A stretch of 64,000 nt of DNA, taken from assembly GCA_021292105.1 (NCBI GenBank), contig CM037874.1, positions 14,490,615 through 14,554,614 on the forward strand, read 5' to 3'. The notes under the pieces are model-generated. The model saw only the letters and a program-made list of their open reading frames with translations. It had not been told where the DNA came from and did not search any database. Below, piece by piece: positions 20,853 through 54,774 of the stretch; within the stretch, counting starts at the first letter, position 1; every line of letters begins with the position of its first letter. This stretch comes from Anadara kagoshimensis. Lineage: Eukaryota > Mollusca > Bivalvia > Arcoida > Arcidae. A program made the position numbers and the translations under genes.

Positions 20853-20947
20853 GAACACGAATTGGTGTTTGCGGTTGATTTTGGTATTGTGGTATGAACA
20901 CGGATCAGTATGTATGTGATTGATGTTGGGGATTATGATTTGAACAT

Positions 20948-21190: not shown

Positions 21191-21671
21191 TGTTTGTGAT
21201 TTGAACATAATCGGTGTGCTTGTAGTTGATTTTGGGGTTTAGATTTGAACGCGAATCGGTATCTTTGTGGTTCATTTTTTTAGTTTTTGATTTGAATATG
21301 GATTGGTATGTTTGTGGTTTATATTTGGTATTGTTATTTAAACACGGGTCGGTGTGTTCATGGTGAACATCAGGTATCAGTGTAATTGTGATTGATATTT
21401 AGGATTGTGATTTGAACATGGATCGGTGTGTTTGTGGTTGATTTTGGGGATCGTGGTTTGAACACGGATGAGTGTGTTTGTGGTTAAAATTTGGGATTGT
21501 GATTTGAATATGTATCGGCATGTCTATGGTTGGCTTATCATATTTTAGTGTACCTTCAAACAATGTTCAAACGATGTTCAGAAACTGTAATGAAATTCAA
21601 TATGGTACACCGTGATATCTCTTATATTTTCTAGCTAGTACCACTAGAAAGAAAGAACTGTTCAGAGCAAC

Positions 21672-28221: not shown

Positions 28222-31200
28222 CGGGTTGTTTTAATACATATGAAAGATAAGTTCGATATCTATCAAACAATTTGCTTTATTTCCTTCAAAATAACGGAAT
28301 TATTCTATATTGCCACACAGATTATAAACTAACGCGTTAGCGTTCTCTAAGGATTAGAATTCTGTTTGATATCGTTATCATTAAAAGAGCATCGAGAAAT
28401 CAATAACTCTTACATTAATTAAATACCAAACAAATAAATTATCTATATAAAGTGTTTGGTACAGAGTAAGTTCAATGCAAATATGTGCCATTTCTATTTA
28501 AATTTGAATTTACATTTTGTAAAGACGATTTTTTAAAAATCTAAATCGCAGTATGTTGTCTAAAAGTTGTTCCCACGACATAATAAATAAATAAATAAAT
28601 AAATAAATAAATGACGCTTTACTCATATATTATAAGTATTTTATTTGTTTTAGTCTAGCTGAATCTTTCTGCCACTTTATCTATAACTGGTGACGATACG
28701 ATATAAGTGAAATAATTTTGACTCGAACGTAAAAGCTCATATAATCAATCATTGTATAGCTAGCTGAATCTGGATTTCGACCAAATACTTATTTTTTTTT
28801 AAAGCTAGTATGAAGATTTATCTAACCTTAAGCATGCAGGCGCGGCTGATTCAGTTTTTTTTTTTTTTTTTTTTTTTTTTCTTTTTTTTTTGCGATACAC
28901 AATATAATCTTATTTGTATAGTCGGTGAGATTAGATTAGATATATAGACATATAGACTTTACATGATGTGAAGTACAATCCAGGTTGTGATAAGTGGATT
29001 AAAAGTGTTGTTCTGTAGGCCACTGGTGTAATAATTCATCATAATTGTGGGAATATATCTATAATTTATCGGAACTTCTTTTACCATTTTCTGAATTTTC
29101 TGAATGTATTTGATGATAAAAATTAAAATGTTTACCCAATAACTTATCAGTACATTGCGGGAAGGTCTGAGATCGAATCTCTTTTCAGAAATGCGATGTC
29201 TAACGGATTTAGATTACAGGGGGCCCAGTAGTTCATGACCCCTAAAACTTAGTCTGGACCCCAAAATTGTACACGTTTAACTATTTATTACTATTACTAC
29301 TTCTTTTCTTGGGAAGCTGGGTTCATAACTCAAAACAAGTTAATTTCATCCCTACTTTGTGTTGAACATGCATCGGATAAAACACTATATACCTGTATAA
29401 ATATATAAAGTAAGGATGCGAAGTTAGACTGGCGTCACGACGCTATAAATATTTTGAAATATTAAAAAAAATATGATATGACATATACACTAGCCATAAC
29501 AAGTATAAATAAAAAAACATTCAATATCGTTTGTTAAAATAAGATTCTGTTCATTGTTCAAAGTCGAAATATTTGCCCGTGATTTTCATAATGTTTGGTC
29601 AGTATCCATTTTCAAGTGTTGGTCACCACTACATTAGATCAGTTGGTAGCCTGAGTGCTTGCTCCGTGTGTAGGAGGTCATAGGTTCGTACCCCGGCCGG
29701 GTCTGACCAAGACTTGAAAATAGATAATAACTGTTCTCTTGCCAACCACCCGGCATTTAGAAATGAATGTTACGGGTTCTTTGAAAGAGACCATAAAAAT
29801 CAATTGCCCTGTGTCGCCTCAGGCGTGACACTATATAAAGAACCCTCCCTGAAGATTGTACTGACCACACTGCAAAAGTCAAAATGTCTGTCACTTCACC
29901 TACAGCTATTGACGTTGATGAGTAAAATATTTTTGACTGGGATGTAAAACCCGTTCAATCAATCAATCAATCAATCAATCAAGTCTTGTTCAGGTCTGGA
30001 CGGGGCTCAAACCCGACTTCTGATATACGGAGTGAGCACTTTTGGGGTTCAAACCCGACTTCTTACATACGGAGCGAGCACCCTATGAACTGAGAATCTG
30101 TAGGTGACATATTAACTGATAAATAGATGTAGATAATATGCTAATGAGTACCTGAGTGATAAAGTAAAATACTAAGATGCATAAACAAATTCCAATTTTT
30201 CAACTCACCAGGTACTATATAGTTAACTTACTGTTCCACTTGTTGAACCCCATCCAGTTTTAAAAAATCGTCAATGATATCGTATACTAGCATATACATG
30301 TACAATTTTTTTAAATGATTTAATGATAATGTTAATATAAATACAATACAAACTTGTCGAAAGTTTAACACAATGCTGACTATAGCTGGCGACGTTTCGA
30401 TATGAATGAAATATTCTTGACTGGGACGTAAAACAACACCAATTAGAGAAGAATCGGCAGCTCAACTCGACCCCTCGTTAGCTATAGCTGCATATCTTGA
30501 CAGCTGCTATCTACTAGGATCTCTTGGCTAGCTATCAATATCTCGACCACTCGCTAGCTATAGCTGCTATCTACTAGTATCTCTTGGCTAGCTATCAATA
30601 TCTCGACCACTCGCTAGCGTACAGCTGCTATCTACTAGTATCTCTTGGCTAGCTATCAATATCTCGACCACTCGCTAGCTATAGCTGCTATCTACTAGGA
30701 TCTCTTGGCTAGCTATCAATATCTCGACCACTCGCTAGCGTACAGCTGCTATCTACTAGTATCTCTTGGCTAGCTATCAATATCTCGACCACTCGCTAGC
30801 GTACAGCTGCTATCTACTAGTATCTCTCGGCAAGCTATCAATATCTCGACCACTCGCTAGCGTACAGCTGCTATCTACTAGTATCTCTTGGCTAGCTATC
30901 AATATCTCGACCACTCGCTAGCGTACAGCTGCTATCTACTAGGATCTCTTGGCTAGCTATCAATATCTCGACCACTCGCTAGCTATAGCTGCTATCTACT
31001 AGGATCTCTTGGCTAGCTATCAATATCTCGACCACTCGCTAGCGTACAGCTGCTATCTACTAGTATCTCTTGGCTAGCTATCAATATCTCGACCACTCGC
31101 TAGCTATAGCTGCTATCTACTAGTATCTCTCGGCAAGCTATCAATATCTCGACCACTCGCTAGCTGTAGCTGCATATCTTGACAGCTGCTATCTACTAGT

Positions 31201-34200
31201 ATCTCTTGGCTAGCTATCAATATCTCGACCACTCGCTAGTTATAGCTGCATATCTTGACAGCTGCTATCTACTAGTATCTCTTGGCTAGCTATCAATATC
31301 TCGACCACTCGCTAGCTGTAGCTGCATATCTTGACAGCTGCTATCTACTAGTATCTCTTGGCTAGCTATCAATATCTCGACCACTCGCTAGCTGTAGCTG
31401 CATATCTTGACAGCTGCTATCTACTAGTATCTCTTGGCTAGCTATCAATATCTCGACCACTCGCTAGCGTACAGCTGCTATCTACTAGTATCTCTTGGCT
31501 AGCTATCAATATCTCGACCACTCGCTAGCGTACAGCTGCTATCTACTAGGATCTCTTGGCTAGCTATCAATATCTCGACCACTCGCTAGCGTACAGCTGC
31601 TATCTACTAGTATCTCTTGGCTAGCTATCAATATCTCGACCACTCGCTAGCGTACAGCTGCTATCTACTAGTATCTCTTGGCTAGCTATCAATATCTCGA
31701 CCACTCGCTAGCTATAGCTGCATATCTTGACAGCTGCTATCTACTAGTATCTCTTGGCTAGCTATCAATATCTCGACCACTCGCTAGCTATAGCTGCTAT
31801 CTACTAGTATCTCTTGGCTAGCTATCAATATCTCGACCACTCGCTAGCGTACAGCTGCTATCTACTAGTATCTCTTGGCTAGCTATCAATATCTCGACCA
31901 CTCGCTAGCGTACAGCTGCTATCTACTAGTATCTCTCGGCAAGCTATCAATATCTCGACCACTCGCTAGCGTACAGCTGCTATCTACTAGTATCTCTTGG
32001 CTAGCTATCAATATCTCGACCACTCGCTAGCGTACAGCTGCTATCTACTAGGATCTCTTGGCTAGCTATCAATATCTCGACCACTCGCTAGCGTACAGCT
32101 GCTATCTACTAGTATCTCTTGGCTAGCTATCAATATCTCGACCACTCGCTAGCGTACAGCTGCTATCTACTAGTATCTCTTGGCTAGCTATCAATATCTC
32201 GACCACTCGCTAGCGTACAGCTGCTATCTACTAGGATCTCTTGGCTAGCTATCAATATCTCGACCACTCGCTAGCGTACAGCTGCTATCTACTAGTATCT
32301 CTTGGCAAGCTATCAATATCTCGACCACTCGCTAGCTATAGCTGCTATCTACTAGTATCTCTTGGCTAGCTATCAATATCTCGACCACTCGCTAGCGTAC
32401 AGCTGCTATCTACTAGTATCTCTTGGCTAGCTATCAATATCTCGACCACTCGCTAGCTATAGCTGCATATCTTGACAACTGCTATCTACTAGTATCTCTC
32501 GGCAAGCTATCAATATCTCGACCACTCGCTAGCTATAGCTGCTATCTACTAGTATCTCTTGGCTAGCTATCAATATCTCGACTACTCGCTAGCGTACAGC
32601 TGCTATCTACTAGTATCTCTTGGCTAGCTATCAATATCTCGACCACTCGCTAGCGTACAGCTGCTATCTACTAGTATCTCTTGGCTAGCTATCAATATCT
32701 CGACCACTCGCTAGCGTACAGCTGCTATCTACTATTATCTCTTGGCTAGCTATCAATATCTCGACCACTCGCTAGCGTACAGCTGCTATCTACTAGTATC
32801 TCTTGGCTAGCTATCAATATCTCGACCACTCGCTAGCGTACAGCTGCTATCTACTAGTATCTCTTGGCTAGCTATCAATATCTCGACCACTCGCTAGCGT
32901 ACAGCTGCTATCTACTAGTATCTCTCGGCAAGCTATCAATATCTCGACCACTCGCTAGCTATAGCTGCTATCTACTAGTATCTCTCGGCAAGCTATCAAT
33001 ATCTCGACCACTCGCTAGCGTACAGCTGCTATCTACTAGTATCTCTCGGCAAGCTATCAATATCTCGACCACTCGCTAGCGTACAGCTGCTATCTACTAG
33101 GATCTCTTGGCTAGCTATCAATATCTCGACCACTCGCTAGCTATAGCTGCTATCTACTAGGATCTCTTGGCTAGCTATCAATATCTCGACCACTCGCTAG
33201 CGTATAGCTGCTATCTACTAGTATCTCTTGGCTAGCTATCAATATCTCGACCACTCGCTAGCGTACAGCTGCTATCTACTAGTATCTCTTGGCTAGCTAT
33301 CAATATCTCGACCACTCGCTAGCGTACAGCTGCTATCTACTAGTATCTCTTGGCTAGCTATCAATATCTCGACCACTCGCTAGCTATAGCTGCTATCTAC
33401 TAGGATCTCTTGGCTAGCTATCAATCTCGACCACTCGCTAGCGTACAGCTGCTATCTACTAGTATCTCTCGGCAAGCTATCAATATCTCGACCACTCGCT
33501 AGCTATAGCTGCATATCTTGACAGCTGCTATCTACTAGTATCTCTTGGCTAGCTATCAATATCTCGACCACTCGCTAGCGTACAGCTGCTATCTACTAGT
33601 ATCTCTTGGCTAGCTATCAATATCTCGACCACTCGCTAGCGTACAGCTGCTATCTACTAGTATCTCTTGGCTAGCTATCAATATCTCGACCACTCGCTAG
33701 CGTACAGCTGCTATCTACTAGTATCTCTTGGCTAGCTATCAATATCTCGACCACTCGCTAGCTATAGCTGCTATCTACTAGGATCTCTTGGCTAGCTATC
33801 AATATCTCGACCACTCGCTAGCGTACAGCTGCTATCTACTAGTATCTCTCGGCAAGCTATCAATATCTCGACCACTCGCTAGCTATAGCTGCATATCTTG
33901 ACAGCTGCTATCTACTAGTATCTCTTGGCTAGCTATCAATATCTCGACCACTCGCTAGCGTACAGCTGCTATCTACTAGTATCTCTTGGCTAGCTATCAA
34001 TATCTCGACCACTCGCTAGCGTACAGCTGCTATCTACTAGTATCTCTTGGCTAGCTATCAATATCTCGACCACTCGCTAGCGTACAGCTGCTATCTACTA
34101 GTATCTCTTGGCTAGCTATCAATATCTCGACCACTCGCTAGCTATAGCTGCTATCTACTAGTATCTCTCGGCAAGCTATCAATATCTCGACCACTCGCTA

Positions 34201-37200
34201 GCGTACAGCTGCTATCTACTAGGATCTCTTGGCTAGCTATCAATATCTCGACCACTCGCTAGCTATAGCTGCTATCTACTAGGATCTCTTGGCTAGCTAT
34301 CAATATCTCGACCACTCGCTAGCGTATAGCTGCTATCTACTAGTATCTCTTGGCTAGCTATCAATATCTCGACCACTCGCTAGCGTACAGCTGCTATCTA
34401 CTAGTATCTCTTGGCTAGCTATCAATATCTCGACCACTCGCTAGCGTACAGCTGCTATCTACTAGTATCTCTTGGCTAGCTATCAATATCTCGACCACTC
34501 GCTAGCTATAGCTGCTATCTACTAGGATCTCTTGGCTAGCTATCAATATCTCGACCACTCGCTAGCGTACAGCTGCTATCTACTAGTATCTCTCGGCAAG
34601 CTATCAATATCTCGACCACTCGCTAGCTATAGCTGCATATCTTGACAGCTGCTATCTACTAGTATCTCTTGGCTAGCTATCAATATCTCGACCACTCGCT
34701 AGCGTACAGCTGCTATCTACTAGTATCTCTTGGCTAGCTATCAATATCTCGACCACTCGCTAGCGTACAGCTGCTATCTACTAGTATCTCTTGGCTAGCT
34801 ATCAATATCTCGACCACTCGCTAGCGTACAGCTGCTATCTACTAGTATCTCTTGGCTAGCTATCAATATCTCGACCACTCGCTAGCTATAGCTGCTATCT
34901 ACTAGGATCTCTTGGCTAGCTATCAATATCTCGACCACTCGCTAGCGTACAGCTGCTATCTACTAGTATCTCTCGGCAAGCTATCAATATCTCGACCACT
35001 CGCTAGCTATAGCTGCATATCTTGACAGCTGCTATCTACTAGTATCTCTTGGCTAGCTATCAATATCTCGACCACTCGCTAGCGTACAGCTGCTATCTAC
35101 TAGTATCTCTTGGCTAGCTATCAATATCTCGACCACTCGCTAGCGTACAGCTGCTATCTACTAGTATCTCTTGGCTAGCTATCAATATCTCGACCACTCG
35201 CTAGCGTACAGCTGCTATCTACTAGTATCTCTTGGCTAGCTATCAATATCTCGACCACTCGCTAGCTATAGCTGCTATCTACTAGTATCTCTCGGCAAGC
35301 TATCAATATCTCGACCACTCGCTAGCGTACAGCTGCTATCTACTAGTATCTCTTGGCTAGCTATCAATATCTCGACCACTCGCTAGCTATAGCTGCTATC
35401 TACTAGGATCTCTTGGCTAGCTATCAATATCTCGACCACTCGCTAGCTATAGCTGCTATCTACTAGTATCTCTTGGCTAGCTATCAATATCTCGACCACT
35501 CGCTAGCTATAGCTGCTATCTACTAGTATCTCTTGGCTAGCTATCAATATCTCGACCACTCGCTAGCTATAGCTGCTATCTACTAGGATCTCTTGGCTAG
35601 CTATCAATATCTCGACCACTCGCTAGCTATAGCTGCTATCTACTAGTATCTCTTGGCTAGCTATCAATATCTCGACCACTCGCTAGCTATAGCTGCTATC
35701 TACTAGTATCTCTTGGCTAGCTATCAATATCTCGACCACTCGCTAGCTATAGCTGCATATCTTGACAACTGCTATCTACTAGGATGTCTTGGCTAGCTAT
35801 CAATATCTCGACCACTCGCTAGCTATAGCTGCTATCTACTAGTATCTCTTGGCTAGCTATCAATATCTCGACCACTCGCTAGCTATAGCTGCATATCTTG
35901 ACAGCTGCTATCTACTAGTATCTCTTGGCTAGCTATCAATATCTCGACCACTCGCTAGCCGAACGTCATCTCTTTTTTGTAAGCTCGGTCTTAAATTTTC
36001 GAGAGGTTTGTACTTTATATATGATTTTAAAAATGGTATATGACACATCTATAAATAACTTCTAACCGTTTATACATAAAATAACATGAAATGTAAAGGA
36101 ATTGGTGTATGAATTTAAATTTGAATCATAAAAATGCCAATATATATACTTATGCACCACATATATAAGTATACCATATATCAAGTAAATCATTAAATAA
36201 AAAAACGTCTTAAGGGTATTATTACACGAATCTTAAGTTTTGATAAGTGAGACTGGGTGATCCGAAAGGTCCTGCTTCATATATATTAAAATTGTTGAAG
36301 TTATTTGTCATCCCCATACCATATATATAATAATGCCAACATACTAAAACATAATACATCGGGAAGGAGATATTCGACTAACGAAATCCGTCCATCCGTC
36401 CGTCTGTCACACTTGTCATCCCCAGCAGTACCGTCCATCAGATATTGATGAAACTTTACAGTTATGATAAGTTGGAGGTGTAGTTGTGCATATCGTCTTC
36501 TTGTTCCGGTTCAATGATTTTTCTAGAAGTTATGGCCCTTGTAAGAAATTCATTTTACAAATAATACCTCTCGACAGGGGATCTTGCCGCTGAGAGTTTT
36601 AATTATTATGAAAAACTGTAATTCTCAATTATAAATACGGTTGTTTTTTTTGGATTCAATTTGTTTCACAAGTTAAACACTAAGCGCGCGTGTGCGTACG
36701 TGCGTGCATGTGTGTGTGTGTGTGTGTCAAACAAATTGTCCATTCTGTACCTTACTTAATAACATCTCATCTTATATTAGCTGGTATTGGGTATTGACAC
36801 TGAATTTTAAAAATATATTTTTCAGGCTAAGGTATCGTGGGAAGATGGTAAACTTGTCACAAGGGCAGAACCTACAGGTGACTCTAAAGCAAAAGCTACA
36901 AAAGTGACCAGAGAGATAGTAGGAGAAGAACTAGTCATGGTTAGTACATAACATTGATGGTAGTGACTCAGCTAATTAGCAAAGAGTCCGCGATGTCGCT
37001 ACTTGTTCTATCCCAAATCTACATGTGGGCTTCCATGACATACTGCTAACAACGAATCACAACGCCTCCCACCCCCTAGGTTTCCGATCTCCCTAAGGAC
37101 ATATCCCTTTGTGTGAAAGTTTGTCATTTCATTTGCCATGGGTTGCAGGCATCTCTGGGCACTCCAGTTTTCTACACCATTACTAGAACTGGATGTCTCG

Positions 37201-40083
37201 ATATAAGTGAATCTGGAAATTGGAAATCTTGACTGGGGTGTAAAACACTTTGGTCCATTATCTCCACATATTGTGTGTTATTTTTGCTTATAAAGAAATT
37301 TAATGAAATCTGAAAAGATTTGATATGCACATAAGAATCCTCCGTCATGCCATTCCACAATGTCGAATTATTGACGACGCATGGCCCCAGTTTCACAATC
37401 AGTCCTTTCTTAACTTTAGAAAGCAAATTCTGGCAATTTTTTGGAACCACGAATAAAAAATTTTGACCTTTCTAAATACAAATGTTATAAGCTTAAAATA
37501 AAAAAAAACTAACAAAATTATTGCGATTTAAATTTTTTTAAAAATTTTTGCCAGATTTAAGTTAAGAAAAATCTAAGAATGGAACTAGGGCCTGAATTTG
37601 TGATTTTATTTTTCTTTTCTGAACCCTTTGACCTTTAAGTCTCGGTAATTGTTCTCCTTGGTAAATGTTACATCGGATATCTTAATCATCATAATATTTA
37701 ACTCGGGGGTCACTCATGGTTAAGTGGTTCGAAGTTCTTGTGCTGTAACCCCTCAACGCATGTGAAAAATTTTTCCTTGTGGGCGTTTTTACATTTTTAT
37801 TTATTAATAATAACAACTCCTATGATTGTTGTTATTTCGGATTACAAACTCCTTTCTCATACTTGGGACCCTTGGATTAATCAAACACAAACATACTGGT
37901 CCATGTCCAAAACACAATCCTATAAGCAACGTAAAAACTTCGAAAAATGGCAAATTATGTTAAATGTGTACTTCCACCAGGGAAGTGAGACCAGATGCTT
38001 CGGAAGGATAAGCACTCCCTGTCTAGCTAGCTCTACCGGTCACATGTAAAACGAAAGGAACATAATCAATGTCACCGTATGATTGGCAAGAAAAATCCTT
38101 CATGCTACATTGAATGTAACTTACTTATAGCTGGTGATATCGGAATATAAATAAAAGTCTTGACCAGACCTTTAACCCAAATTAAATTGATGTGTAATAC
38201 AATAATTGTGCAGTGTAGGAGATGACCACATGTATTAGTTAAGAGTGGAGTGGAGTAATGACGTTTTATGCCCAGTCAAGGTCCTTTAACTTATATCGAG
38301 GTGGCCAGTTAATTAATAGTGGAGGAAACCAGAGTGTCCGGAGAAAACTAAATTCCTTAGACAAGCGAATTGACAAAGGTTCTCGCACTAGGAGGTCTCA
38401 CGAAAAGGGATTCGAACCTAGTTGATGAGATGCACTGTGGCCTGTCCGCGCGCTTAAAACCACCGGTCTTCGAGCCCCCTCTCACTTTAGGATGTGGCCC
38501 GGGTGTGATTCGAACCTAGCAATTGAGATGCGTTTTAATTCGTAAGCTTGATCACCGAGGATCCCTTTCATGATTAGTAAGATGACCACATGTACTTGTT
38601 AGCTGACCAGTGGCTATTATTATCAGAATCCGGTCAGTTGATAAGATAAATAAGCTGAATCAAGTTACCTGAGGTCTGTTATCAGGTTATCATGTAAATA
38701 TAAATAAGCTTAGACTTAAGTATTTAAGATAACAAGTTGTGGTTATAACATTATTAGTTTGATCATATAAAAATCCATGTTTGTCGTACCGCACTGAGAC
38801 TGGGACACTAGGACAATTTCGTAACAAAATCGGATCAAAATGAAAATTACTGTACACTTTGAAAACAAAACGATCTATAAAGTGTCTCTGAATTTAAAAT
38901 ACATTGATTGATAGAACTGTAGATTGTATTCCGTAAAAAAATATTTCACTAATATTGAGACATCGCCAGCTATAGATGAAGTGCTTTGCTGTGCGCCCAG
39001 GACAATGTACAGGGAAGGTTCTTTAGCGTGTCACGCCTATTATGACACGGGGCATCCGTTTTAAAGTACGGTATCTTTCGAAGGACCTCGTGACTTTCAT
39101 CTCTAAATACCAAGTGTTTTAGTGAAAGAATAGTCACCATTCGTTATCAAGTCCTGATCAGCCCCTGACTATACAGTGGAACATAAATCTCCCGTGTAAT
39201 GGTGATATTCGGGCGATCCAACCACAGGCGCTTGGGGTCAGGTATTTTTTTCTTTTTCAGAAGTTCTTTTTTATATAGAGAAAATCAAGAAAGTTTTAAA
39301 GTGCAATAAAATCAGTTTATTTCTGGTGCATTTAGGTCAGAACATTGTCAGATATGATAAAATAGCAAAATATATCATTGCTTGGTCGATAAAATAATAA
39401 ATTGAAAAAAACCTGACCCCAAGCGCCTGTGGATCCAACACAAACATACCATTCCATGATAAAAAAGCGAAGTTAAAACTTTAAAAATTGTCAAATTAAG
39501 TTAAACACGCGAACTTCCACCAGGGAAGGGAGTCCAGGTGTTCAGGAGGGATAAGCACCCGTTGTCTAGCTAGCTACACCCACCGCAATTGATGAGATAA
39601 AAACATGACCCAAACCAAACTGTGTAGAATAGTCAATTGCAACGAAACAACCACTCAATAATGACAACAAACAATGAGACTTTTGATATGTTGATTGATA
39701 AATAGCAACGTTTAGTGTTGGTATGATATACCATCGGTATACAGCCGATGTGCATTCTACGTGGATTTTAATCAATTCTGGTACAAATGTAAACTAGCAT
39801 GAAAGGATGAAAGGAATTGTGAACCATGATAAAATATGTAGGTCAAAGGTAAAGGTCACGAAGCAAAATCCATTCTGTATCCTTCATTTCTACATGGATT
39901 TTAATGAAATTTGGTACAAATGTAAACCAGCAAGCAAAAATAGGTCAAAGGTCAAGGCGGACGGTGTATATGAGCTTGCTCACTTTTTCTGTTGTTTGTT
40001 GCTCCATAAATTTTTTTTTATATTTTCAGACTGTTTGTGTGAATGAAGTTACGTGTAAAAGAATATTCAAGAAGAAAAGTTAA
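27180..40083 (+). CDS. FABP: Fatty-acid-binding protein, complete, 4 exons
   Basis: Exons 27180-27267, 27883-28052, 36826-36939 and 40030-40083 join in phase to 141 codons plus TAA, with the four-exon structure conserved in the FABP family. The start MALAEIENKIAGVWVLDRNE and YMKEIGVNFVLRKMARLAS match the family signature; the end VNEVTCKRIFKKKS matches the last strand. Intracellular lipid-binding beta-barrel that ferries fatty acids or retinoids in the cytosol. The C-terminal Arg-x-Tyr that holds the carboxylate reads Arg-Ile-Phe here, so ligand contact may differ. Intron 2 (8.8 kb) holds a large satellite element. Confidence 0.93.
27390..27828. repeat. (GA)n composite minisatellite in FABP intron 1
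   Basis: Four direct copies of a roughly 95-base unit (attgcaaggtacatgttttg, atgacctaatcgcctcatag, then a GA run) and one inverted copy at 27390-27455 (ggtcatcaaaacatgtacct). Confidence 0.8.
27883..28052 (+). CDS. FABP: FABP exon 2
   Basis: Acceptor gtaaaag, donor GTAAAT. Encodes VNFVLRKMARLASSTMTI to DPQDNPMK, barrel strands B-E. Confidence 0.92.
28077..28221. repeat. (GA)n microsatellites
   Basis: Two GA runs, 28077-28109 and 28180-28221, near the 5' end of FABP intron 2. Confidence 0.9.
28585..28612. repeat. (AATA)n microsatellite
   Basis: Seven tandem tetramers (ataaataaataa). Confidence 0.85.
28853..28891. repeat. Poly(T) tract
   Basis: Near-continuous T run with one C; may be the reversed tail of a retroelement. 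Confidence 0.9.
29622..29981 (+). mobile_element. tRNA-derived SINE, full length, (ATCA)n tail
   Basis: A box cagttggtagcctgagtgct, B box ataggttcgtaccccggccg, body ggcgtgacactatataaaga, tail ttgactgggatgtaaaaccc, then about six ATCA units. The best copy of this family in the window. Confidence 0.8.
30351..36010. mobile_element. TIR element A with giant internal satellite
   Basis: Left end aacttgtcgaaagtttaaca (30351) is the imperfect inverse of ttaaattttcgagaggttt (to 36009). The pre-array segment gaatcggcagctcaactcga matches element C (gaatagactgctcaacttga at 49980), so the array sits in a defined element. A SINE-tail scrap (30375-30435) lies in the left flank. Confidence 0.6.
30470..35958. 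repeat. Satellite array, 60/61-bp monomers with a 76-bp variant, about 89 copies
   Basis: Core monomer: ctgctatctactagtatctc, ttggctagctatcaatatct, cgaccactcgctag, then either ctatag (60 bp) or cgtacag (61 bp). A longer variant adds catatcttgacag. Point variants (cggcaag for tggctag, ggatctc for gtatctc) mark a higher-order period of about 1.12 kb. Very rich in CTAG and AGCT. Lies wholly in FABP intron 2. Confidence 0.95.
36703..36728. repeat. (GT)n microsatellite
   Basis: Short GT run in FABP intron 2. Confidence 0.85.
36826..36939 (+). CDS. FABP: FABP exon 3
   Basis: Acceptor tttttcag, donor GTTAGT; 38 codons in phase 0, AKVSWEDGKLVTRAEP to EIVGEELVM. Confidence 0.92.
37383..37593. mobile_element. 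MITE, second copy of the 8812-9071 family
   Basis: Ends ggccccagtttcacaatcag and gttaagaaaaatctaagaat, the same terminal motif as 8812-9071 but a shorter centre. Confidence 0.7.
37880..38065 (-). mobile_element. Retroelement tail copy
   Basis: Contains catactggtccatgtccaaa, ccaccagggaagtgagacc and gtctagctagctctaccgg in the order of the 2270-2460 copy. Confidence 0.7.
38265..38575 (-). mobile_element. tRNA-derived SINE, second head type, minus orientation
   Basis: The reversed B box aagggattcgaacctagttg occurs twice (38408 and 38506, the second degenerate), so the head is duplicated. The reversed A box region includes tgtccgcgcgcttaaaacca. The tail end gtcctttaacttatatcgag matches the other SINEs. 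Confidence 0.65.
38935..39200 (-). mobile_element. tRNA-derived SINE, minus orientation
   Basis: Reversed tail tatttcactaatattgagac, body gcaggacaatgtacagggaa-like, gtgtcacgcctattatgaca; head degraded. Confidence 0.65.
39425..39600 (-). mobile_element. Retroelement tail copy
   Basis: acacaaacataccattccat, cttccaccagggaagggagt, tctagctagctacacccacc in conserved order. Confidence 0.7.
40030..40083 (+). CDS. FABP: FABP exon 4
   Basis: Acceptor atattttcag; TVCVNEVTCKRIFKKKS then TAA. Confidence 0.92.
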   Translation, partial: TVCVNEVTCKRIFKKKS

Positions 40084-40964
40084 CCTTTTATACATAACTT
40101 AATGTTATTTTAGGAACATATCAAATCTGGAGCCTTCATTTACATTTTAATATTAACTGTGATTCCATTGTGAGGCACAAGTCGTTGTGATTTTATGGTC
40201 CTCGAGACACACTAAAACATGTGATGCCATTTGTAAAGATGATGTCATATATCGTTTTTATTTCATAAATACATGATTTAATAATGGTATATGACATCAC
40301 AGTTTTATCAAATGGTACCGAAAAGAAAGTATGGACAGTATTACTTATTTCTTGTCCATTGAGTGACAATTTTCATCAAAAGTCCATTAATACTGAAAGT
40401 GTAGATGAAATTCCTTAATATATATATATTATACCCCTTAATATCGCCCTTTGCTTGTTTTAGGTAGATTTTGGAGTGATATATAGGATTTCTAGACACC
40501 ACCTTCTCACGGCGACTTCTCCTTTTGTAGAATCAAATTGTATACTTTATTCAAAACTGCAAAAGTATTATGGATATTACTATCAAATAAATGAGTTATA
40601 TGCAACGTTGTTAAAAAATAACCCCTTTAAAGATTCTTTTCAAGGTAGCAATTGTTCAAACCCTGTGTTTCAGTACTTTGATAGTATCAATTACCTTTTG
40701 ATTAAAACAAGTCATCGTAATTATGATAGACATATAGAATGTGTCTAGGACAAATTGATAACTTTTAATGTTAGTATTATATTTGACAATTACATGTTGT
40801 AACACTGTTTTACATCAGATAAGTCATATATCGGTAGTAGATACTTAATTATAATATAATATAGTACCGAGGATGTTATTTTAACTATGTGGTATTGATA
40901 AATATTTGTTGATGTAAGACAAAAGAAGTTAAATAAAAATAAATACACATTTATAAGGCTTAGC

Positions 40965-41009
<45 letters not shown>

Positions 41010-41317
41010 CCCAACAAAGTTTAGGGGGTATATATACGAATCACCATGCCCCCTTCTGTCCGTCTGTTCCAATATCCGATTTCTTTCATGTCCATGGACG
41101 GATTTCAATCAAACTTGGTACAAACACAAAAGTGAACCAAAATGACACAATGTGTCACATTCCAACTTTAGGTGCATAGGTCAAGGGTCAAGGTCAAATA
41201 TTAGATATAACAATTCGACGATGTTTGGGGACATAAGGATTTGTCTCCCAAGAGACTGCTCTAGTTTCACTTTGTTTACATCAGGATGTTACACATTCAT
41301 TTTCAGTTTAGACTTAG
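40084..41317. other. Downstream of FABP; no gene seen
   Basis: AT-rich. Holds a (CT)n run at 40966-41008 and a common repeat fragment at 41085-41200 (ttcaatcaaacttggtacaa, then a caagggtcaaggtca-like stretch). Confidence 0.45.
40966..41008. repeat. (CT)n microsatellite
   Basis: About 20 CT units. Confidence 0.95.
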
Positions 41318-42300
41318 TTTTGTTCAATTCAATTCAATTCATTTATTTATTTCCTCTATTTTAGAGATATAATGTATGAAAGTTTTAACAGATAAACATA
41401 TGTATACTAAATATTACATATAACAACATAAGTAAATCATATACACTATATACATATATATATATATGAGAAGTCCAGTGTTGAAGGACTTTTACTATAG
41501 GAGTATTCAGTCTATGCTTGGTGTTTGATACTACATGCAACAACACATCGTTTTATAAATCTAAATGCCGATAAAGTCCAATTTCGGTTGTATTCGACAT
41601 CAGAATGTTGGTATCTTCCCGATAGGAGGAAGCGGACAAAGTTTTCTTTACTGCTTGTTTGTATATTAATGATGTTACTGTGTAAGTCTCTGTCGAACAT
41701 GCACACGGAATTAAGAAATGCGGTTCTGAGTCGGCTCGTTGCAGGGCATGTGCACACCGCATGCTGAATGGATTCTTCAGTGATATCGGAAAAACATGCA
41801 TTGCAGTAAAGTGTTGTATTAGTTTGAACCGGATTTGCCCATAATTGTACAATAAAATAACAAAGTTCTAGTTCACTTCTATATTGTAACGTGCAAATAT
41901 GTTTAGTGTCCTGTTTGAAGTACATTAAATTTTAAGTTCCTCATTGGAGATATTTCCGTGACTGACTGAATAAAACTGGCGATAGAAAAGTTGTAATTTC
42001 AGTGGGTGGTTTTGAACATTTATTTTGTATAATTTGGTCCATCTAGAAAGTTATATCTTGAACTTTTAAATCTTTTTCTGCTCAGTCTGTTCTTGCTGCA
42101 TGTAGTTAAGAAATCATTGCCTGTAGCAACTAAGGAAAACAACATGTGGATTGCTTTTTTGGAATTTTGGAATTATACAGTGGTGTCTTAGCGGACATCT
42201 GTTTCTAGTGTGCCCTAGTTAATAAGCAGCTCAGAGCAAGTAATAACATAAGGTATCCTCGGAGTATTTTTATGAGCTTTCTACTTTGTAAGCTAGTGAC
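41318..42300 (-). mobile_element. LINE 3' fragment, minus orientation
   Basis: Minus-strand coding relic 41512-41925 is the C-terminus of a non-LTR retrotransposon polyprotein. Its 3' end lies at a (GAATT)n-like tail at 41318-41345 (ttcaattcaattcaattcat on the plus strand). Confidence 0.65.
41512..41925 (-). pseudogene. C-terminal Cys/His region of a LINE polyprotein
   Basis: 137 open codons with a C-x2-C...H...C motif (YCNACFSDITEESIQHAVC, TCPA) near residues 40-65, as found after the reverse transcriptase in several LINE clades. No reverse transcriptase remains upstream. Confidence 0.6.
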
Positions 42301-42714
42301 AAACTTCGAGACTTATAGGTATCGCAAGGCTAGTAGGTATCCAGATCTGATGATCCAGATATCCAGAAATATTATAAACAATCTGAAGATATTTGGTCAT
42401 GAATGATCGATGTCCATCTCCATGTGAAGAAGCCAGGAGTATTGTGTAACAAGTAAATGTCTTGCTTTTAAAGAACTTTCCACATTTCACCAATAATTTA
42501 TAACACAGCCTTTATATTGTCAGTTGAATTGTTACATGAACTGCTAATAATACATATTGTTCATTTTGGTGATTCTTTGATGCAGCTCATATTGCACCAG
42601 AATGCAGGATTTTTGCGCAATTTTTTCAAAAATTTTCGGACCCCCCTACAAGGTTCGAGCCTTCAGCTCTCACATTATACGCCCCCCCCCCTTTCTAAAA
42701 TTCTGGATCCGCCT

Positions 42715-43015
42715 CTGACTATGGTTGCTCAGTTAGACAGTAGTGTTCACTTTGTGTGTGGGAGGTCGGGGTTCGATCTGATCGAGACTTGAAAATAGGC
42801 AATTACCGTTCTTTTGCCAAGCACACCGCATTTAGAAATGTATACGTAAGTCACGGGATCCTTCGGAAGAGACATTTAAAATCGACTATTTAAAGAACCC
42901 TCACTGCACATTTGTTCTGAGGGCGTTGCGAAGGTAAAAAGTCCAGCCATTTCATTCATAGTTTATGACGTCTCGATATAAGTAAAATGCTCTTAAATGG
43001 GATGTAAATTTCCAG
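42715..43015 (+). mobile_element. tRNA-derived SINE
   Basis: Head gctcagttagacagtagtgt with B box ggtcggggttcgatctgatc, body gcatttagaaatgtatacgt, tail gacgtctcgatataagtaaa. Confidence 0.75.
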
Positions 43016-43200
43016 AATAATTTTTATGGGAAAACGTGGAATACATTTCCAATGGAAATAATTATTTCGCCGGTGCCGCAATAAGCGTACGCGTTAAGAG
43101 GTACCATGTAGTACAGCGGCTCTGAACCACATCAATCTCTGAACCACATGTATTTAACACAATAGTTCGTTGTTCTGTTATTTATCGACAACTATTGTTT

Positions 43201-43441
43201 GTTATAGTGCGTCACGTTTGACTTGGTCGTTTGACCTTTAATGGAATAATCCATTGACAATGGAACTGTGAAATTTAGGGGCTATACTAGGTTAATAGAT
43301 ACGGATAAATGATATAAGAATTGGGTGCCGGGTGTTTATGGTAATGAATCGTGCTGTCGTCCCTAAATGAAACATTCTATTAGCCCAATTTAATATTCAA
43401 ATTAAAGGTCAAACGATCAGGTCAAACTTGATGCACTATAC
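43201..43441. mobile_element. MITE with about 40-bp inverted ends
   Basis: Left gttatagtgcgtcacgtttg, ttggtcgtttgacctttaat versus right attaaaggtcaaacgatcag, gtcaaacttgatgcactata: inverse repeats with a few mismatches. Non-coding centre. Confidence 0.7.
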
Positions 43442-44049
43442 CCTGTGCTTTATCAGATGACTGCTCTTAATAATTGTGTACTGACAAGATACATCGTTTA
43501 CACACGAGCAATATGTTCTATTTACGTCTGTCGGATATTCCCATGTGTAATTTATAATTAGATTTTATATCTAGAAATAAAGACATCCATGATCAATCGA
43601 TTGAAATTTAATAAAATCTGTTTTGACATTGTACAGCTATAGTGTATGTCATGTACTTTATTGCTTGGGGATTGTTTTGAACATGAAAAAATAAAATTGA
43701 AAATGAAAAACCGTAAACGCTAGGGGAAAAAAGCCGAAACAACCAAGACCACAAAATCCATAACAGGGAATCAAGACAAGAAAATAATAAACACAAGTCC
43801 GAAAATTCTGAACACTTTGATACTAAAAAAAACTGGTCCAAGATTTTAGTCTTAGTCTTGGTCAGAATCTCGGACTAAATAAACAGCGATAGGGTCTGAA
43901 AGTCTCTTTACGTCATGTCGGAAGAATTGAGGTTTTTGTGAAACAGAAAGAGAACTGCAAAATACGAGAACACAATTACTCAAGATCACAGTAAACATTG
44001 AGATGCTAGTAAAGTTGTTACTGTATGGTATCTTTCTTTCTCATAGCCC

Positions 44050-44400
44050 TGGCTAATGAGGCCCAGAATAAGTCCAGACATCATTATGCGTCGAAAGCAC
44101 AGCGGCTTGTGTTGTACTGATTTCATTAGGCGTTGACAGTTTCCACGCCTAATGGAGTCAGAAGATTGACGCTCCAGACGAGAAGTTAACTACAGTCGTT
44201 CGATTTTTAGGATAATTTTTTATTTTGTAATACCAAAAAGGCTTCTCGTCTTGGGCCTAAGTCGTTGGACTTAAATAGTCGAAATTGTCAACCCAGTAAT
44301 GTAGACAGAATTATTTCTCTCGTCAACGACCTTTTATCAGTTGACGAAAGAAAAAAATCAGTCCACGCATAATTAAGTCCGGGCTTTATAAGGAGTTATT
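44050..44400. mobile_element. Possible degenerate inverted-repeat element
   Basis: gaataagtccagacatcatt and atgcgtcga on the left partly mirror gtccacgcataattaagtcc on the right; several interruptions. Confidence 0.3.
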
Positions 44401-46389
44401 ATCCGACGCATTCATTGGTATATAATACATTGCTTTGATCACATTTATTTTTTACGCATAGTGACGATTCTTGCGGTCAGTTCCGGGACCTTCGGGGTGG
44501 AGAAAACATTGCCCTGAGCGCACTGCTGGTGACGTCTCGATATAAGTTAAATATTCTTGACATGGATGTACAAGCAATCTCTTTTCTCCCAAAATCACAA
44601 ACGAGAGGGTTTCTCAATTAAACAGTAGGTAAAAAATGGCCGTCCGTCCGCCGAAATTCTTGACCGGGGTAATTCTCCAATACTACGAAGCACTATTTCA
44701 CGAAACTTGGTGCAAAGTAACAACATAGGTAGGAGATGCGCATAGTGTTAACCAAAGTCAGTTCTGATGTGATATTTAGCTTAAAGTAATAGTTTATTTT
44801 GAGAAATTTTCTCCAAAAATGGGTAATACGTTTTTGAGTTAATTTTGACAAAATTGAACAATGCCTTCATAACATAATGTCAGACAAAATATTTTTCTGG
44901 AGTAATTCTCCAAAACTATGAAGCACAATTTCACGAATCTTGGTTCAAAGCTTTAACATCGATAGGCCTGGAGATGCCCATTTCATCAATTAAAGTTTGC
45001 TTATTTCCCTGTGAGTTAATGCCCTTTGATAGAAAAAAAACAAGAATCACATTTATGTAAAAAAAAGATTTTATTTTATGATGCAATCACTTATTCCCAA
45101 GTTAATATTCTATAAATAAACTCTATTCAAATAAACAGATACTGCAGTAATGATAATTTTCATATAAAACAATGGATAATTTTACTGAATTGTTCATGGT
45201 TGCGTAAAAAGAAAAACTCTCCTAATAGATATATTATATATACAAGTAAAAAGCACATCTGTCTACAATCTTGGTCTAATTAATTTATTTTCTCTGTAAA
45301 TACTATTTGTAATTATCATATATACTACCAAATACATCTAAATTCCTATCAAGTTAGCACTTCAAATGCTGATGATGCTACAATCATCAATTAATTACAA
45401 TAGAAATCTATAACTAGATTTGTTGCCATGGAAACAATAATCAATTTATCTGGCAGTGTTAAAACTAGAGCAGAATACAGCGAATCAGTATCTCTAAACA
45501 GTATATTGTCTGAAAACGGATTGATTTTAAATTTAAAGTGTGCTTTACCTTTTTTTATCCCCCCTTTTTCTCCCACAAATGTCTTCTTTTCAATGAGAAT
45601 CAAATTCAAAGATGAAATCTTTTAAATTTTCAATTGACGTGAAAAATTAGAGAAGAAATTAAGCTCAACTAACTATATTCCCAAGGCAAATTTTGATTTA
45701 GACGCAGTAGTCACAAAATTACCAGTAGGAAAATGTTACAAGATGGTAGTCAAAATTTTACCAATACAAAAATTGTTGTGTTTAAAAAATATAAAAGTTG
45801 TATTTCTCACTATTTTGTGTAAATCATGTCATTTTGTATAATAGGTACATTCAACAAAGAATATCCCACACACTGCCTCACATTCAATGTTAAAATAATT
45901 GGTATATATATAATGATGAATGATCCTTTCAACCCTTGTTTAACAAAGGACACTACAAGTTAATTTTGTGTTATTTGTAAGTTGAATGGATTTCGTATAT
46001 AAAATACTGTCAACGACTACAATGTATAGATTAAAACAGTTATATTCCACTCTAAAAATCTATTTAGAAAAAAAGTTATATAGATCTATATCCCAAACAA
46101 ATCACACGTTTACAGTGACTTTGTTGTAAACACACATTAAGGTTTAAATCTAAAACACTTATGTTATATGTATCTATTAAATTGAAAAAAATGCCTCCAA
46201 TAATAGCTATGCTACCTAGAGGCAAAAAAGGACACATTGTTTTTTTAATGTTACCACCTGCTAGAGTGAAGGCTTGTTTTAGTAATCAAAAACTCTTATT
46301 TTACAACAATTAAAAAGTGAAAGTATCATTAAAGAATTCTATATAAAAATAGGTTTATTTGATGGTGGTGATAATGATATTTTATCTAC

Positions 46390-46830
46390 AATACTAGAGA
46401 TTCTAGCTCCTAAATCCATTATAATGGAATGGAAACTGAACTTGATGCAATTTAGGTTGAACAACCATAACATCAGTGGAACATTCTAGCTCCTATATCC
46501 ATTATCATGAAATAGAAACTGAACTTGATGTCATCTAACTTGAAGAACCATAATGTTTGTGGAACATTCTAGCTCCTATATCCATTATCATGAAATAGAA
46601 GCTGAACTTGATGCAATTTAAGTTGAACAACTGTATCTTCTGTCAAACTATGATTATAGTAGATTCTATCTCCTAAATCCATTAGAATGAGATGGTTTCG
46701 AAACTCCAACTTGATTCAATTTAGGGTTGAACAACTGTATCATCTGTTAAACTATGATTAAAGTAGATTCTAGCTCCTAAATCCATTAGAAATGGAAACT
46801 TTACTTTATGCAATTTTAAGTTGATTGACC
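46390..46830. repeat. Diverged minisatellite, about 90-105-bp unit, 5 copies
   Basis: attctagctcctaaatccat, gaaactgaacttgatgcaat, gaacaaccataa recur in order five times with substitutions and small indels. Confidence 0.8.
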
Positions 46831-46852
46831 ATAATGTCTGTGCTACTTGTGT

Positions 46853-46853
46853 T

Positions 46854-46878
<25 letters not shown>
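46853..46878. repeat. (CA)n microsatellite
   Basis: About 13 CA units. Confidence 0.9.
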
Positions 46879-46887
<9 letters not shown>

Positions 46888-47589
46888 CCATTACATCTTG
46901 AAGATAAGATACCAGTTCCACAGACACTACAGTCCTTCATTCATAAGATGTTAATAGCATTTTGTTATCCTTTTCTGAATTAAAACTTCAAATGAAAATA
47001 GCAGAGTGTCATTTTGAATGTCACCCTGGTTTACGCATTAACACTTATAATGGGGTCAATTATGCCATACATTGTTCTTTTGCACAATCAATCTCTCACA
47101 ATAATTCTCCACACAACTTTTCACATCCTCTCCCTCCTTCTACTCTCTCTTTCTTTCTCTCTGGCTCTCTCTCTATATCTTTCTCTCCCTCTCTCTTTCT
47201 CGAGCACACATACACATATATACACTCTAATCACATTTATTTCATGGGAATATAAATAAAATACTAGTAATTATAAAAAATACTTTTAAAAATCACAACC
47301 AGACAGTATACCTAATTCCTTCATTTTAAGATAGAGTGATTATTTAAAAAAACATCTGGTAAAAATAGTACCTTTTTTAAAAAAAAAATAAAAATATTTT
47401 AACTAAATAAAAAATTTCACTGGCAGTAAATATAAAATCAAATATATTTGAAATTATTTAAACTTTGAAATTTAATTTAAATACACTGATTAATAAAAAT
47501 ATTTTACATTTTTTTTGAAACACTGCAAAACTTAAATGTTATTTAAAAAAAATTGATTTTGTACCTTATTGTTTAACACTGAAGCTAGT

Positions 47590-47800
47590 AAAATGGGTTC
47601 GCTGCTGTACCACATCCACATGATAAACATCCCTTGACATTTGTTTTAAGGCATTTCGGAAAACATTTACATTGAATAATGCCGTTTTTACAGGAAAACA
47701 CAAACTATTATGATTCCATATCAAAAAAAAAAAAAAAAAAAAAATTGTTTGGCCCAATGTAAGGGGGTATCACTTAGTACAGCAGTGAAACCCATAAAGG
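47590..47800. mobile_element. MITE of the GCTGTACCAC family, diverged
   Basis: atgggttcgctgctgtacca on the left, gtacagcagtgaaacccata on the right. Confidence 0.55.
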
Positions 47801-48501
47801 AAACAAAGATTAAATTCTGCATGTAAAACTTAATCAAAATGAAAAAAAAACTGTTTAAAAAATGGACTAGCATCTAGAGCAAAGCCTTTATAAAACAACA
47901 ATAAATTGAAATAAAACACAATGCTTCTACATAGGTATAGTGTACTATAAGAAAACCAAAGCAGTTGACTTGGTAAAATTTGTATGGGTAAAATTAAAAA
48001 TCTGAGGCAGTTGCCTCGGTAAAATTTGTACTGTCCATATATAAACATATATTGGCCCAATTTTCCACCATGAGAGATGGAATTGTGTCAATTAAGTCAT
48101 ACTAAAAGTACAACATTTATAGTCACACTTCTTCTGACTTATACAAACTGCCTTGGTTATTCTGAAAGCTACACTATGCCTTTGTTTCCTATATAGCTTT
48201 TAAGCTAAGAATAAACACTCTATTAGGGCTTAATTTTCACATTATTTTAAAATATTGGTTTAACTACAAAATCAGTAACAAACATTTTGATGATATAAAC
48301 AATGATCTTGTCTTTTTAAGACAATGATTGAACAAATTTTTTAAAATATAAATCTATTTTGGGAAATGGTTATACATGTAAATATGTACAAAAATGTGAT
48401 ATTGAATGTATTTATAGATTTTTCAAATTCAAAAATAACAAGATGAATATGTATAAAAACATGTACTACAGATCCAATATTAAATTGAATGTAGTCACAG
48501 T

Positions 48502-48727
48502 ACAGACCTGTTGAAAGTTTAACACTGAACTAACAAACCAATAGGAGTTGAAGCCCAGCTGCCCAGTGTGAATGAGACATGAATAGCTAGTGACCGCTAG
48601 TCTGCCAAACGATAGATAGCAGCTGTCAGTATATAGCTAGCAAGGGGGTAAAATGAGCTGACAATTGTCCACTAATTTGTCAGTTCAGAGTTAAACCCTG
48701 ACTTTAACAGGCCTTTAACAGGCCTGT
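48502..48727. mobile_element. TIR element B, short form without array
   Basis: Left acagacctgttgaaagttta, acactgaac is mirrored by right gttcagagttaaaccctgac, tttaacaggcct. Its centre has one monomer-like stretch that in reverse complement resembles the element A unit (gatagatagcagctg reads cagctgctatctatc in reverse). Confidence 0.6.
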
Positions 48728-49458
48728 ACGGTAATTCTGTATCAAAAGTCACTGATGAAAAGTAACACAATATTATTTCTATTCCAGATTTATGTCGACA
48801 AAAATTACGATTTACAGATAAATTTGATTCATGAAATTCTTGATATGTAAAATATTTAAATTTTGTATTAAAAAACTCAAAAAGCTGTAGGGTAATTTAA
48901 ACCTGATGATTTTTTATTTATTCATGAGTTTCATTAAATCCAGTTCTCCTATGTTATCATGTTGGGCCAATTTATGAAAATATGGCCCCAGATTTTGGCC
49001 CAAATCCATGGCCAGAATGACCCAACCTACCGGTACTTCATTTCTGCATTGAACACCATGTGAACTGATATGATTTCATATCTAATGGAAATAATTATTT
49101 TACACAACTGTTAGCAGATATCAGTGGTGAATCTAACTGAAAATTGAAAATAATTAAACTGGGACTTGGGACTTAAGACTTTAAAAACTCTGGCTTAGAA
49201 AAACTCCAAACTAGGATTACCGGTACATACGTTCCTTTTGTGACCCTGAAATTTGATTTATTCTTATAACATTTAAAATATAGAAGACATAAAATTGCAT
49301 CATAAATTCAGATCCAATTGTCTGTTTGCTTCAAACTTTTACAACAATACAAAAATACTTCTTAAAGTATTCCAACAAAACAATCAAAATAAAAAAAAAT
49401 GTCTCTTAACAAGCAACTGGTTTTTCTCAACACATAAAACATGGGTATTATAACATCA

Positions 49459-49754
49459 GTGGAAGCGCGTGGCCTAGTGGTTAAGGCGTTGGACTCATGA
49501 TTCGAAGGTCGTGGGTTCGATCCCTGGACCGGGCGATGTGTTGTGTCCTTGAGCAAGACACTTAATTTCACGTTGTTCCAGTTCACTCAGCTGAAAAATA
49601 AATGAGTACCAGCAAAATGCTGGGGGTTAACCCTGCGATGGACCGGCGTCCCATTCAGGGGAGAGTCTTGTACTCTCAGTCGCTTAACGCCACCGAAACC
49701 GGGATAAGCTCCGGCCTGATGGGCCTAATGGCTCGGGACAGACTTTAACTTTTA
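49459..49754 (+). mobile_element. tRNA-derived SINE with V-like core
   Basis: A box tggcctagtggttaaggcgt, B box gtgggttcgatccctggac, then a core ccctgcgatggaccggcgtc like the V domain of metazoan SINEs. Flanked by a perfect 12-base duplication attataacatca (49447-49458 and 49755-49766), so both ends are certain. Confidence 0.9.
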
Positions 49755-49936
49755 ATTATAACATCAAAACCCTTAAGCAATAACAATGAGAATAAAAATA
49801 ATGAAAATGTAACACATTCATTAATACAAACATGTTCAAAGAATTAGAAATGTCAATAAATAATAAAAAGCATAATATTATGAAAACATGTTAATTCATA
49901 AAAAGGTCAAATGTATCACCTTAATATAGCGTGAGT

Positions 49937-50827
49937 GCAGACATGTCAGAAGTTTAACATTAAGTTAATGAATCAAGGATGAATAGACTGCTCAACTTGA
50001 CTCCTCATTATCTAGACCTGGACAGCTTTCAGTGGCAGCTATATATTTTTTCGGCAGATTTTTGGTCGCTAGCCATAAATATATGTGTACAGTCCATTCA
50101 GCAGCCTAGCTTAGAATCCATGGATATATGTGTATTGGCCATTCAGCAGCCAAGCTTAGAATCCATGGATATATGTGTATTGGCCATTCAGCAGCCTAGC
50201 TTAGAATCCATGGATATATGTGTATTGGCCATTCAGCAGCCTAGCTTAGAATCCATGGATATATGTGTATTGGCCATTCAGCAACTAAGCTTAGAATCCA
50301 TGGATATATGTGTATTGGCCATTCAGCAGCCAAGCTTAGAATCCATGGATATATGTGTACTGGCCATTCAGCAGCCTAGCTTAGAATCCATGGATGTATG
50401 TGTATTGGCCATTCAGCAACTAAGCTTAGAATCCATGGATATATGTGTATTGGCCATTCAGCAGCCAAGCTTAGAATCCATGGATATATGTGTATTGGCC
50501 ATTCAGCAGCCAAGCTTAGAATCCATGGATATATGTGTATTGGCCATTCAGCAGCCAAGCTTAGAATCCATGGATGTATGTGTATTGGCCATTCAGCAGC
50601 CTGGCTTAGAATCCATGGATATATGTGTATTGGCCATTCAGCAGCCAAGCTTAGAATCCATGGATGTATGTGTATTGGCCATTCAGCAGCCTAGCTTAGA
50701 ATCCATGGATATATGTGTATTGGCCATTCAGCAGCCTAGCTTAGAATCCATGGATGTATGTGTATTGGCCATTCAGCAGCCTAGCTTCTAATCTCTATAG
50801 CTTAGTGTTAGACTTTCAACAAGTTGA
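49937..50827. mobile_element. TIR element C with 45-bp internal array
   Basis: Left gcagacatgtcagaagttta, acattaag versus the inverse of right cttagtgttagactttcaac. The pre-array segment is shared with element A. Confidence 0.65.
50082..50790. repeat. Tandem array, 45-bp unit, about 15.7 copies
   Basis: Unit atggatatatgtgtattggc, cattcagcagcctagcttag, aatcc with few variants. Since 45 is a multiple of 3, long ORFs appear in several frames on both strands; these are not genes. Confidence 0.95.
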
Positions 50828-51471
50828 CTACACCATACATGTAGTTCGGATTGTAAAACTTCAGACTAATACGTACATGTAATATTATAACCTCCTGTGT
50901 AATGTACATGTAAAATATAAATACACGTAAAATAAAATGAGGGATATCAGATGACCGGTTAAATAATATTATTTTGGTTTCACCTTTAACCTTTTGTGTA
51001 TTGTTAAAATGGATTTCTATATATAGTAACACAATGTCGTCACTATGACATCTAAGTGTGATCTTCAATAACCAGGAAATGATTTTATGAAAATAGTTTT
51101 TGGTGCAGGACACTTAATACAGCCCATCTTTTTAAGTTTCAATGACATAATGTTAGATCATGACTCAAGAAACATAAAATGTGATAGTTGTGTCCTTGTA
51201 ATTTTGATTTGTCAACATTTCCTGATCACTGGAGGGACAAGAGGATCCAAATTCCCATTCCAATCACTAGATTTGATGGAAGATTTGATCAGAATTCATG
51301 GTGGGTGTGTTGTTTATGGGGTGCCTTTTCAGGGATGAATTTCTGAAAAAAGTTCAAACTTAAAAAAATGATTTTGGAATGGAACGACATAAATCTCAAT
51401 GACTAGCAACAAATTTGCATAAAAGTCTGGCACTGATCTGCTATAATGTACATAATATGTCATATTGTAAT

Positions 51472-54700: not shown

Positions 54701-54734
54701 TAACAGCTTATTACATTACATATAGTTGTGCAGG

Positions 54735-54774
<40 letters not shown>

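Follow-up and report, generated by a model that had tools for sequence, protein, structure and literature searches.

We analysed a 64,000-nucleotide window of the Anadara kagoshimensis genome (GCA_021292105.1, contig CM037874.1, forward-strand positions 14,490,615 to 14,554,614), in which a sequence-only reading had picked out three elements with shared ends, here called A, B and C. All three are copies of one family with terminal inverted repeats (TIRs), and the consensus of that family, a MITE, matches each of them. The consensus was built from 49 simple copies out of the fetched loci, with 173 to 232 bp between TIR cores, and is 221 bp long with TIRs of about 40 bp and a flanking TA at both borders. 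The elements and their parts lie as follows, in window positions.

30344..36015, minus strand: element A, an amplified MITE copy in reverse to the consensus, with TA at 30342-30343 and 36016-36017
30344..30371, plus strand: left TIR of A, 89% to consensus 1-28 (28 bp)
30380..30438, plus strand: unrelated abundant repeat of 59 bp within the left end of A, 95% identical to other copies
30500..35959, minus strand: satellite of A, units of 60, 61 and 76 bp, consensus about 57-122, the 76-bp form extending to about 145
35956..36015, minus strand: right end of A with its TIR, consensus 2-59
48498..48731, plus strand: element B, an ordinary full-length copy without an array, 75% to consensus 1-202 (208 columns, E=2e-36)
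about 49933..50830, minus strand: element C, an amplified MITE copy in reverse to the consensus, by consensus matches
49934..50078, minus strand: left end and pre-array body of C, consensus about 73-220
50079..50787, minus strand: satellite of C, 15.8 copies of a 45-bp unit, consensus about 43-80
50767..50824, minus strand: last monomer of C continuing into the right end, consensus 9-70

The right side of A matches the consensus over 159 bp at 74% (E=1e-21), and C matches it over 188 bp at 71% (E=7e-18) and, in its right part, over 62 bp at 76% (E=5e-7). Apart from A, B, C and the array monomers, the window gave a single 16-bp match (E=0.47). The array in A had been described as a 60/61-bp satellite; the array is there, but its units come in a 76-bp form as well. 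B had been taken for an element with one satellite monomer and is instead an ordinary unamplified copy, with a flanking TA on its right side only. The segment that had been noticed as a pre-array segment of two elements (gctcaactcgacccctc / gctcaacttgactcctc) is indeed shared, being MITE body at about consensus 150-168, reversed. At the right end of B (48705-48731), a short direct duplication lies inside the TIR (TTTAACAGGCC twice).

Next, we looked into how widely the ends occur. The TIR motif GACCTGTTGAAAGTTTAACAC, at up to 3 mismatches, had 75,437 matches in the 1.115-Gb assembly (38,253 forward and 37,184 reverse), and the reversed motif, used as a control, had 65 (21 and 44). The ends are thus far from confined to this window, and these counts, with the consensus alignments, rule out a chance resemblance between the ends of A, B and C. 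With B as the query, relatives were found on many chromosomes, and in several the first 31-36 bases recur inverted at the far end. A query from the end of A was uninformative on the MITE, as 39 of its 39 other matches were confined to the unrelated repeat embedded there (query 30-90).

A flanking TA was present on both sides in 43 of 72 copies (left, 56/72; right, 55/72), against a background of TA at 9.4% of window positions, and in simple copies sequence conservation falls off immediately beyond it on either side. A first search for empty sites returned mostly self-matches, and the informative cases were two loci, L029 and L088. In L088, a MITE copy is inserted in another repeat, unoccupied relatives of which, with the TA present once, lie in locus L071 and at the following place in the window.

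10339..10403, minus strand: empty site, a relative of the repeat that hosts the L088 copy (74% over 68 columns), TA present once

In L029, a copy is nested in another copy of the family, and the joined flanks of the guest align to unoccupied relatives across the junction when the TA is counted once. The nested copy and the empty site together show that insertion duplicates a TA, and they bear out the view of the sequence-only reading that this is one mobile family. The family is therefore a non-autonomous, TA-targeting MITE with tens of thousands of copies: it is short and abundant, has paired TIRs and, at 221 bp, is too small for a transposase. It is probably Tc1/mariner-like, a label suggested by the TA target duplication together with a CAGT-type end, which we take to be a hint of that affiliation.

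A pearl-type or Helitron-related affinity had been raised for the family. In the available text on pearl and HINE elements, these have 11- to 12-bp subterminal repeats and a 3' palindrome and lack a target duplication (PMC7492417). We reject membership in that group because the present family has terminal TIRs of about 40 bp and a TA duplication.

We then compared the array units of A and C with the MITE body. The A unit aligned in reverse to consensus 57-122 with a score of 64 (best of 300 shuffles, 37). The single C unit aligned to consensus 43-70 with a score of 36 (best of 300 shuffles, 29), and the C dimer with a thin margin (37, shuffle best 36). At the left end of C, consensus 43-220 aligns without a break into the first monomer (E=7e-18), and at the right end consensus 2-70 aligns into the last; it is mainly because of this collinearity at both ends of the array that we assign the C unit to the body. 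Different windows of one 221-bp body thus make up the cores of A and C, which have one parent. The array units are homologous to the element's own body, and simple and arrayed copies coexist, as in a MITE-derived satellite.

The sequence-only reading had called the two cores unrelated and had proposed one mobile family that carries and amplifies different tandem cores. The tandem amplification of the centres stands; the carriage of unrelated cores does not. A family that captures unrelated tandem cores and disperses them, as inferred for some oyster Helentron (HINE) elements, would account for the dissimilar look of the two cores at first sight, and the available text of PMC7492417 reports capture of this kind for Cg_HINE group 2. 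We consider this very improbable here and reject captured cores for A and C: their single units each beat all 300 shuffles and run collinearly into body sequence. Furthermore, the fetched loci gave 148 TRF rows, 54 of which match the body (z>4); 28 of the 54 overlap rows of A and one a row of C.

Core types associated with the ends were surveyed in samples of loci. Among the loci retrieved with A, B or C as query, which form a biased sample, thirteen besides the near-duplicate L008 carry arrays that match the consensus in other body windows. Their unit lengths are 49 bp in L007 (and L008), 55 in L012, 82 in L028, 23 and 78 in L029, 56 in L035, 32 in L040 and L080, 21 in L070, 78 and 171 in L071, 143 in L072, 151 and 120 in L079, 66 in L081 and 67 in L082. 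Eight further places have arrays of 22 bp (six), 62 bp (one) and 35 bp (one). A less biased sample consisted of the first 30 exact TIR sites listed (on C1 and C2), one of which was dropped for lying less than 1 kb from another; three pairs resemble near-duplicates, leaving 27 loci. Arrays were found in L097 and L100 and duplications in L088 and L096, the others being simple or truncated. This gives arrays in 2 of 27 loci (95% interval, 1-24%) and arrays or duplications in 4 of 27 (4-34%), in a sample where multi-TIR copies are over-represented and the fetched 721 or 421 bp overlooks longer structures.

Arrays might instead have had a single origin in a small number of master copies, with later dispersal by transposition of array-bearing elements. 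In favour of this, the same 22-bp unit occurs at two C14 loci, two C2 arrays look alike and so do two C11 arrays, and L071 looks like a composite that has moved. However, the alike pairs may be segmental duplicates, and arrays from the same body window vary in sequence between loci. Among the best candidates scored, C array-only matches at 94-95% were confined to its own locus, as were matches to the A unit at 83% or more; elsewhere the A unit was matched at 70-78%, except for two short matches (43 and 34 query bases). We therefore think dispersal from master copies unlikely as the general origin of the arrays.

To see what sets the ends of the units, we considered separately those that lie within the body and those that contain a TIR. 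Short direct repeats of degenerate sequence occur in the body, among them (A/G)GCTGCCGA and AGTG(G/A)CCGA, and the motif [AG]GCTG[CT]C[GA]A is present five times (consensus 56, 97, 118, 129 and 162); the best diagonal self-match of the consensus was equalled by 6 of 1,000 shuffles. For 12 internal units, the junction homology summed to 62, compared with 16.4 expected for random pairs and with a mean of 19.6 and a best value of 58 in 20,000 draws of a simulated null in which junctions were re-estimated from mutated random windows. The test omitted five of the six 22-bp loci, the 61-bp form of A (the 76-bp form was used instead), secondary TRF rows from arrays already represented, the two-copy duplication of L096 and all TIR-containing units. 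At exact coordinates the excess was significant under loose scoring (P<2e-5) and strict scoring (P=2e-5); it weakened with a tolerance of ±1 (P=0.003 under both) and of ±2 (P=0.07 and P=0.08, respectively). A, C and L070 had a junction homology of 0 at exact coordinates, so the window's own two arrays do not demonstrate the direct-repeat rule.

A junction predicted for the 22-bp unit, AGTGGCCGA to AGTGACCGA, was matched 1,098 times when 2 mismatches were allowed, with the reversed pattern (0 matches) as the sole control; ordinary consensus sequence differs from it at 4 or more positions. The 100 matches listed fell at 10 loci, 7 of them clustered; in four clusters every spacing was an exact multiple of 22, and in three some of the steps were. 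These results suggest a preference of body-internal units for boundaries at pre-existing short direct repeats, one that fades as the tolerance is widened.

Ten arrays have units that contain a TIR, and in nine of them (L007, L029, the 78-bp array of L071, L072, L079, L081, L097, L100 and L114) one end of the unit is the outer boundary of the element. The 171-bp repeat of L071 contains foreign sequence and fits neither the internal nor the terminal rule. For seven of these nine, L007 and L081 being ambiguous, the other end of the unit coincides with an internal TA: it lies at consensus 144 in L029, 75 in L079, 75-76 in L071 and L097, 81 in L100, 85 in L072 and 34 in L114. Single units of L072 and L079 have a mutated TA, with an intact TA alongside. 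The TA at such a junction carries little weight because the outer end has a TA of its own; it is the joined body site that counts. In L114 (G000, C5:59111500-59111900), the TIR itself is a 35-bp satellite that runs from the outer TA to the internal TA at 34.

Junction patterns for the outer end joined to TA75 or TA144, two of the 11 interior TA sites of the consensus, picked after arrays had been seen there, were then searched in the genome. The TA75 pattern had 668 + 517 matches and its reversed control 0. The 100 TA75 matches listed (0-1 mismatch) fell at no fewer than 28 loci, 15 with a single junction and 13 clustered; ten of these clusters have steps of 75-77 bp (76 predicted), two of 63 or 64, and one is ambiguous. 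The TA144 pattern had 38 matches at 10 loci, six of them single, and the arrayed loci have steps of 67 (two C2 arrays), 74 (C16) and 78 bp (C13). As non-TA controls, site 150 had 2 matches at 2 loci, and site 65 had 109, the 100 listed all lying in two similar C11 arrays (G000, C11:36336612-36338442 and C11:36975689-36978942), mostly in 42-bp steps, where GGCTGCCAAG is joined to TACAGTACAG. The two C11 arrays are perhaps segmental duplicates, and they are an exception to the TA rule unless their source copy had a TA at that site. Units with a TIR mostly extend between the outer end and an internal TA, which is what insertion of the MITE into its own copies predicts.

L029 displays such an insertion next to an array. 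Its host copy has a 23-bp internal array, and the guest sits in the host's internal TA at consensus 144. After the guest come seven 78-bp units, each reaching from the internal TA (144) to the right end. Units 1 to 6 have guest-like terminal variants (GGCAGGTCTGTACCG) on host subterminal sequence, and unit 7 has the host's own end (GACAGGCCTGTACTG). Units 1 to 6 are therefore host-guest chimeras, which is the pattern predicted by exchange between guest and host TIRs and shows host-guest exchange directly at one locus. L071 has a complete element followed by end-units, with no host half alongside, and may be a composite that was moved by its outer TIRs.

TIR-containing arrays might also come from template switching in replication, at the 2-bp TA microhomology between flank and body and without self-insertion. 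The outer TA belongs to every outer-end junction, so that 2-bp microhomology could mimic insertion; a host half is absent in L071, L097 and L100, and the two C11 arrays are joined at a non-TA site. Against this, an intact nested guest adjoins the chimeric array of L029, and the single junctions at 15 of the 28 TA75 loci listed (0-1 mismatch only) are what plain nested copies would give. We regard template switching as a serious but lesser possibility.

A, B and C are copies of one MITE, and we consider it probable that single inserted copies amplify in place into satellites by an internal and a terminal route. In the internal route, slippage or unequal exchange between direct repeats of the body would duplicate the stretch between them, and further exchange would enlarge it; the arrays of A and C would be of this kind. 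In the terminal route, a MITE would insert in the internal TA of another copy, bringing like halves into direct orientation, and exchange between these would multiply the piece from the outer end to the TA. The recombination steps and their order, like amplification in place itself, are what we infer from the arrangement of the copies. More tentatively, and with slightly less than even confidence, we propose that the element's own target preference sets unit length. Self-insertion and exchange would give units that span exactly the outer end to the TA (35, 76-78, 82 bp, etc.), direct repeats of the body would set the other lengths, a single 221-bp sequence would suffice to predict much of this genome's unrelated-looking satellite variety, and composites whose ends had multiplied would be mobile themselves.

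The family follows a known route from MITE to satellite, in what appears to be a new variant. In the available excerpts (PMC12628747, PMC9659126), the Xenopus Tc1/mariner MITE miDNA4 (Scalvenzi and Pollet 2014) likewise has a single or arrayed internal monomer that grows into satellites, with microhomology as the proposed driver; however, it has one satellite, thought to be captured, whereas the present element has satellites from many parts of its own body, and arrays of its ends as well. Xstir and Xmix, of a Xenopus MITE (Hikosaka and Kawahara 2004), are by the same excerpts also tandem repeats from the MITE's own sequence, but of one repeat type explained by a stem-loop model, unlike the many windows and internal-TA boundaries seen here. 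The bivalve elements pearl, DTC84 and Cg_HINE are, as far as the available text goes (PMC7492417, PMC5139131), dispersed short elements with tandem cores too, but they are Helentron-like, and pearl cores are about 160 bp. In transposable-element dimers that form when elements insert repeatedly at one target (McGurk and Barbash 2018; as summarized in the excerpt of PMC12628747), insertion preference gives the first tandem copy and expansion follows, as proposed here; those dimers are whole elements side by side, whereas insertion inside a sibling would give a partial unit of predictable length. In the literature covered, mostly outside subscription papers, we found no report of one MITE whose different windows yield many satellites, or of self-insertion at an internal TA setting the bounds of units, a weak sign of novelty.

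It has long been asked how satellite families originate and get their unit lengths. A single dispersed parent, present in tens of thousands of copies, allows many satellite births to be studied in one genome, where its copies are found in simple, duplicated, nested and fully arrayed form. Rules for unit boundaries thereby become statistically testable, and they predict the unit lengths to be expected. A single parent can underlie satellites of unrelated appearance, and its sequence seems to decide where a unit starts and ends.

The window holds other repeats as well. The stretch at 29625-29979 is a 72% relative of an abundant repeat of about 340 bp, the 3' part of which also sits inside A. Between B and C, 49464-49745 looks like a tRNA-derived SINE; ARAGORN found no tRNA. 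Tandem repeats of 46, 30 and 81 bp, degenerate and apparently not related to the MITE, form a block at 19923-21532, and 21/22-bp arrays with an TTAATTCGCGTTATTACGCC-type unit lie in both orientations at 54217-55138.
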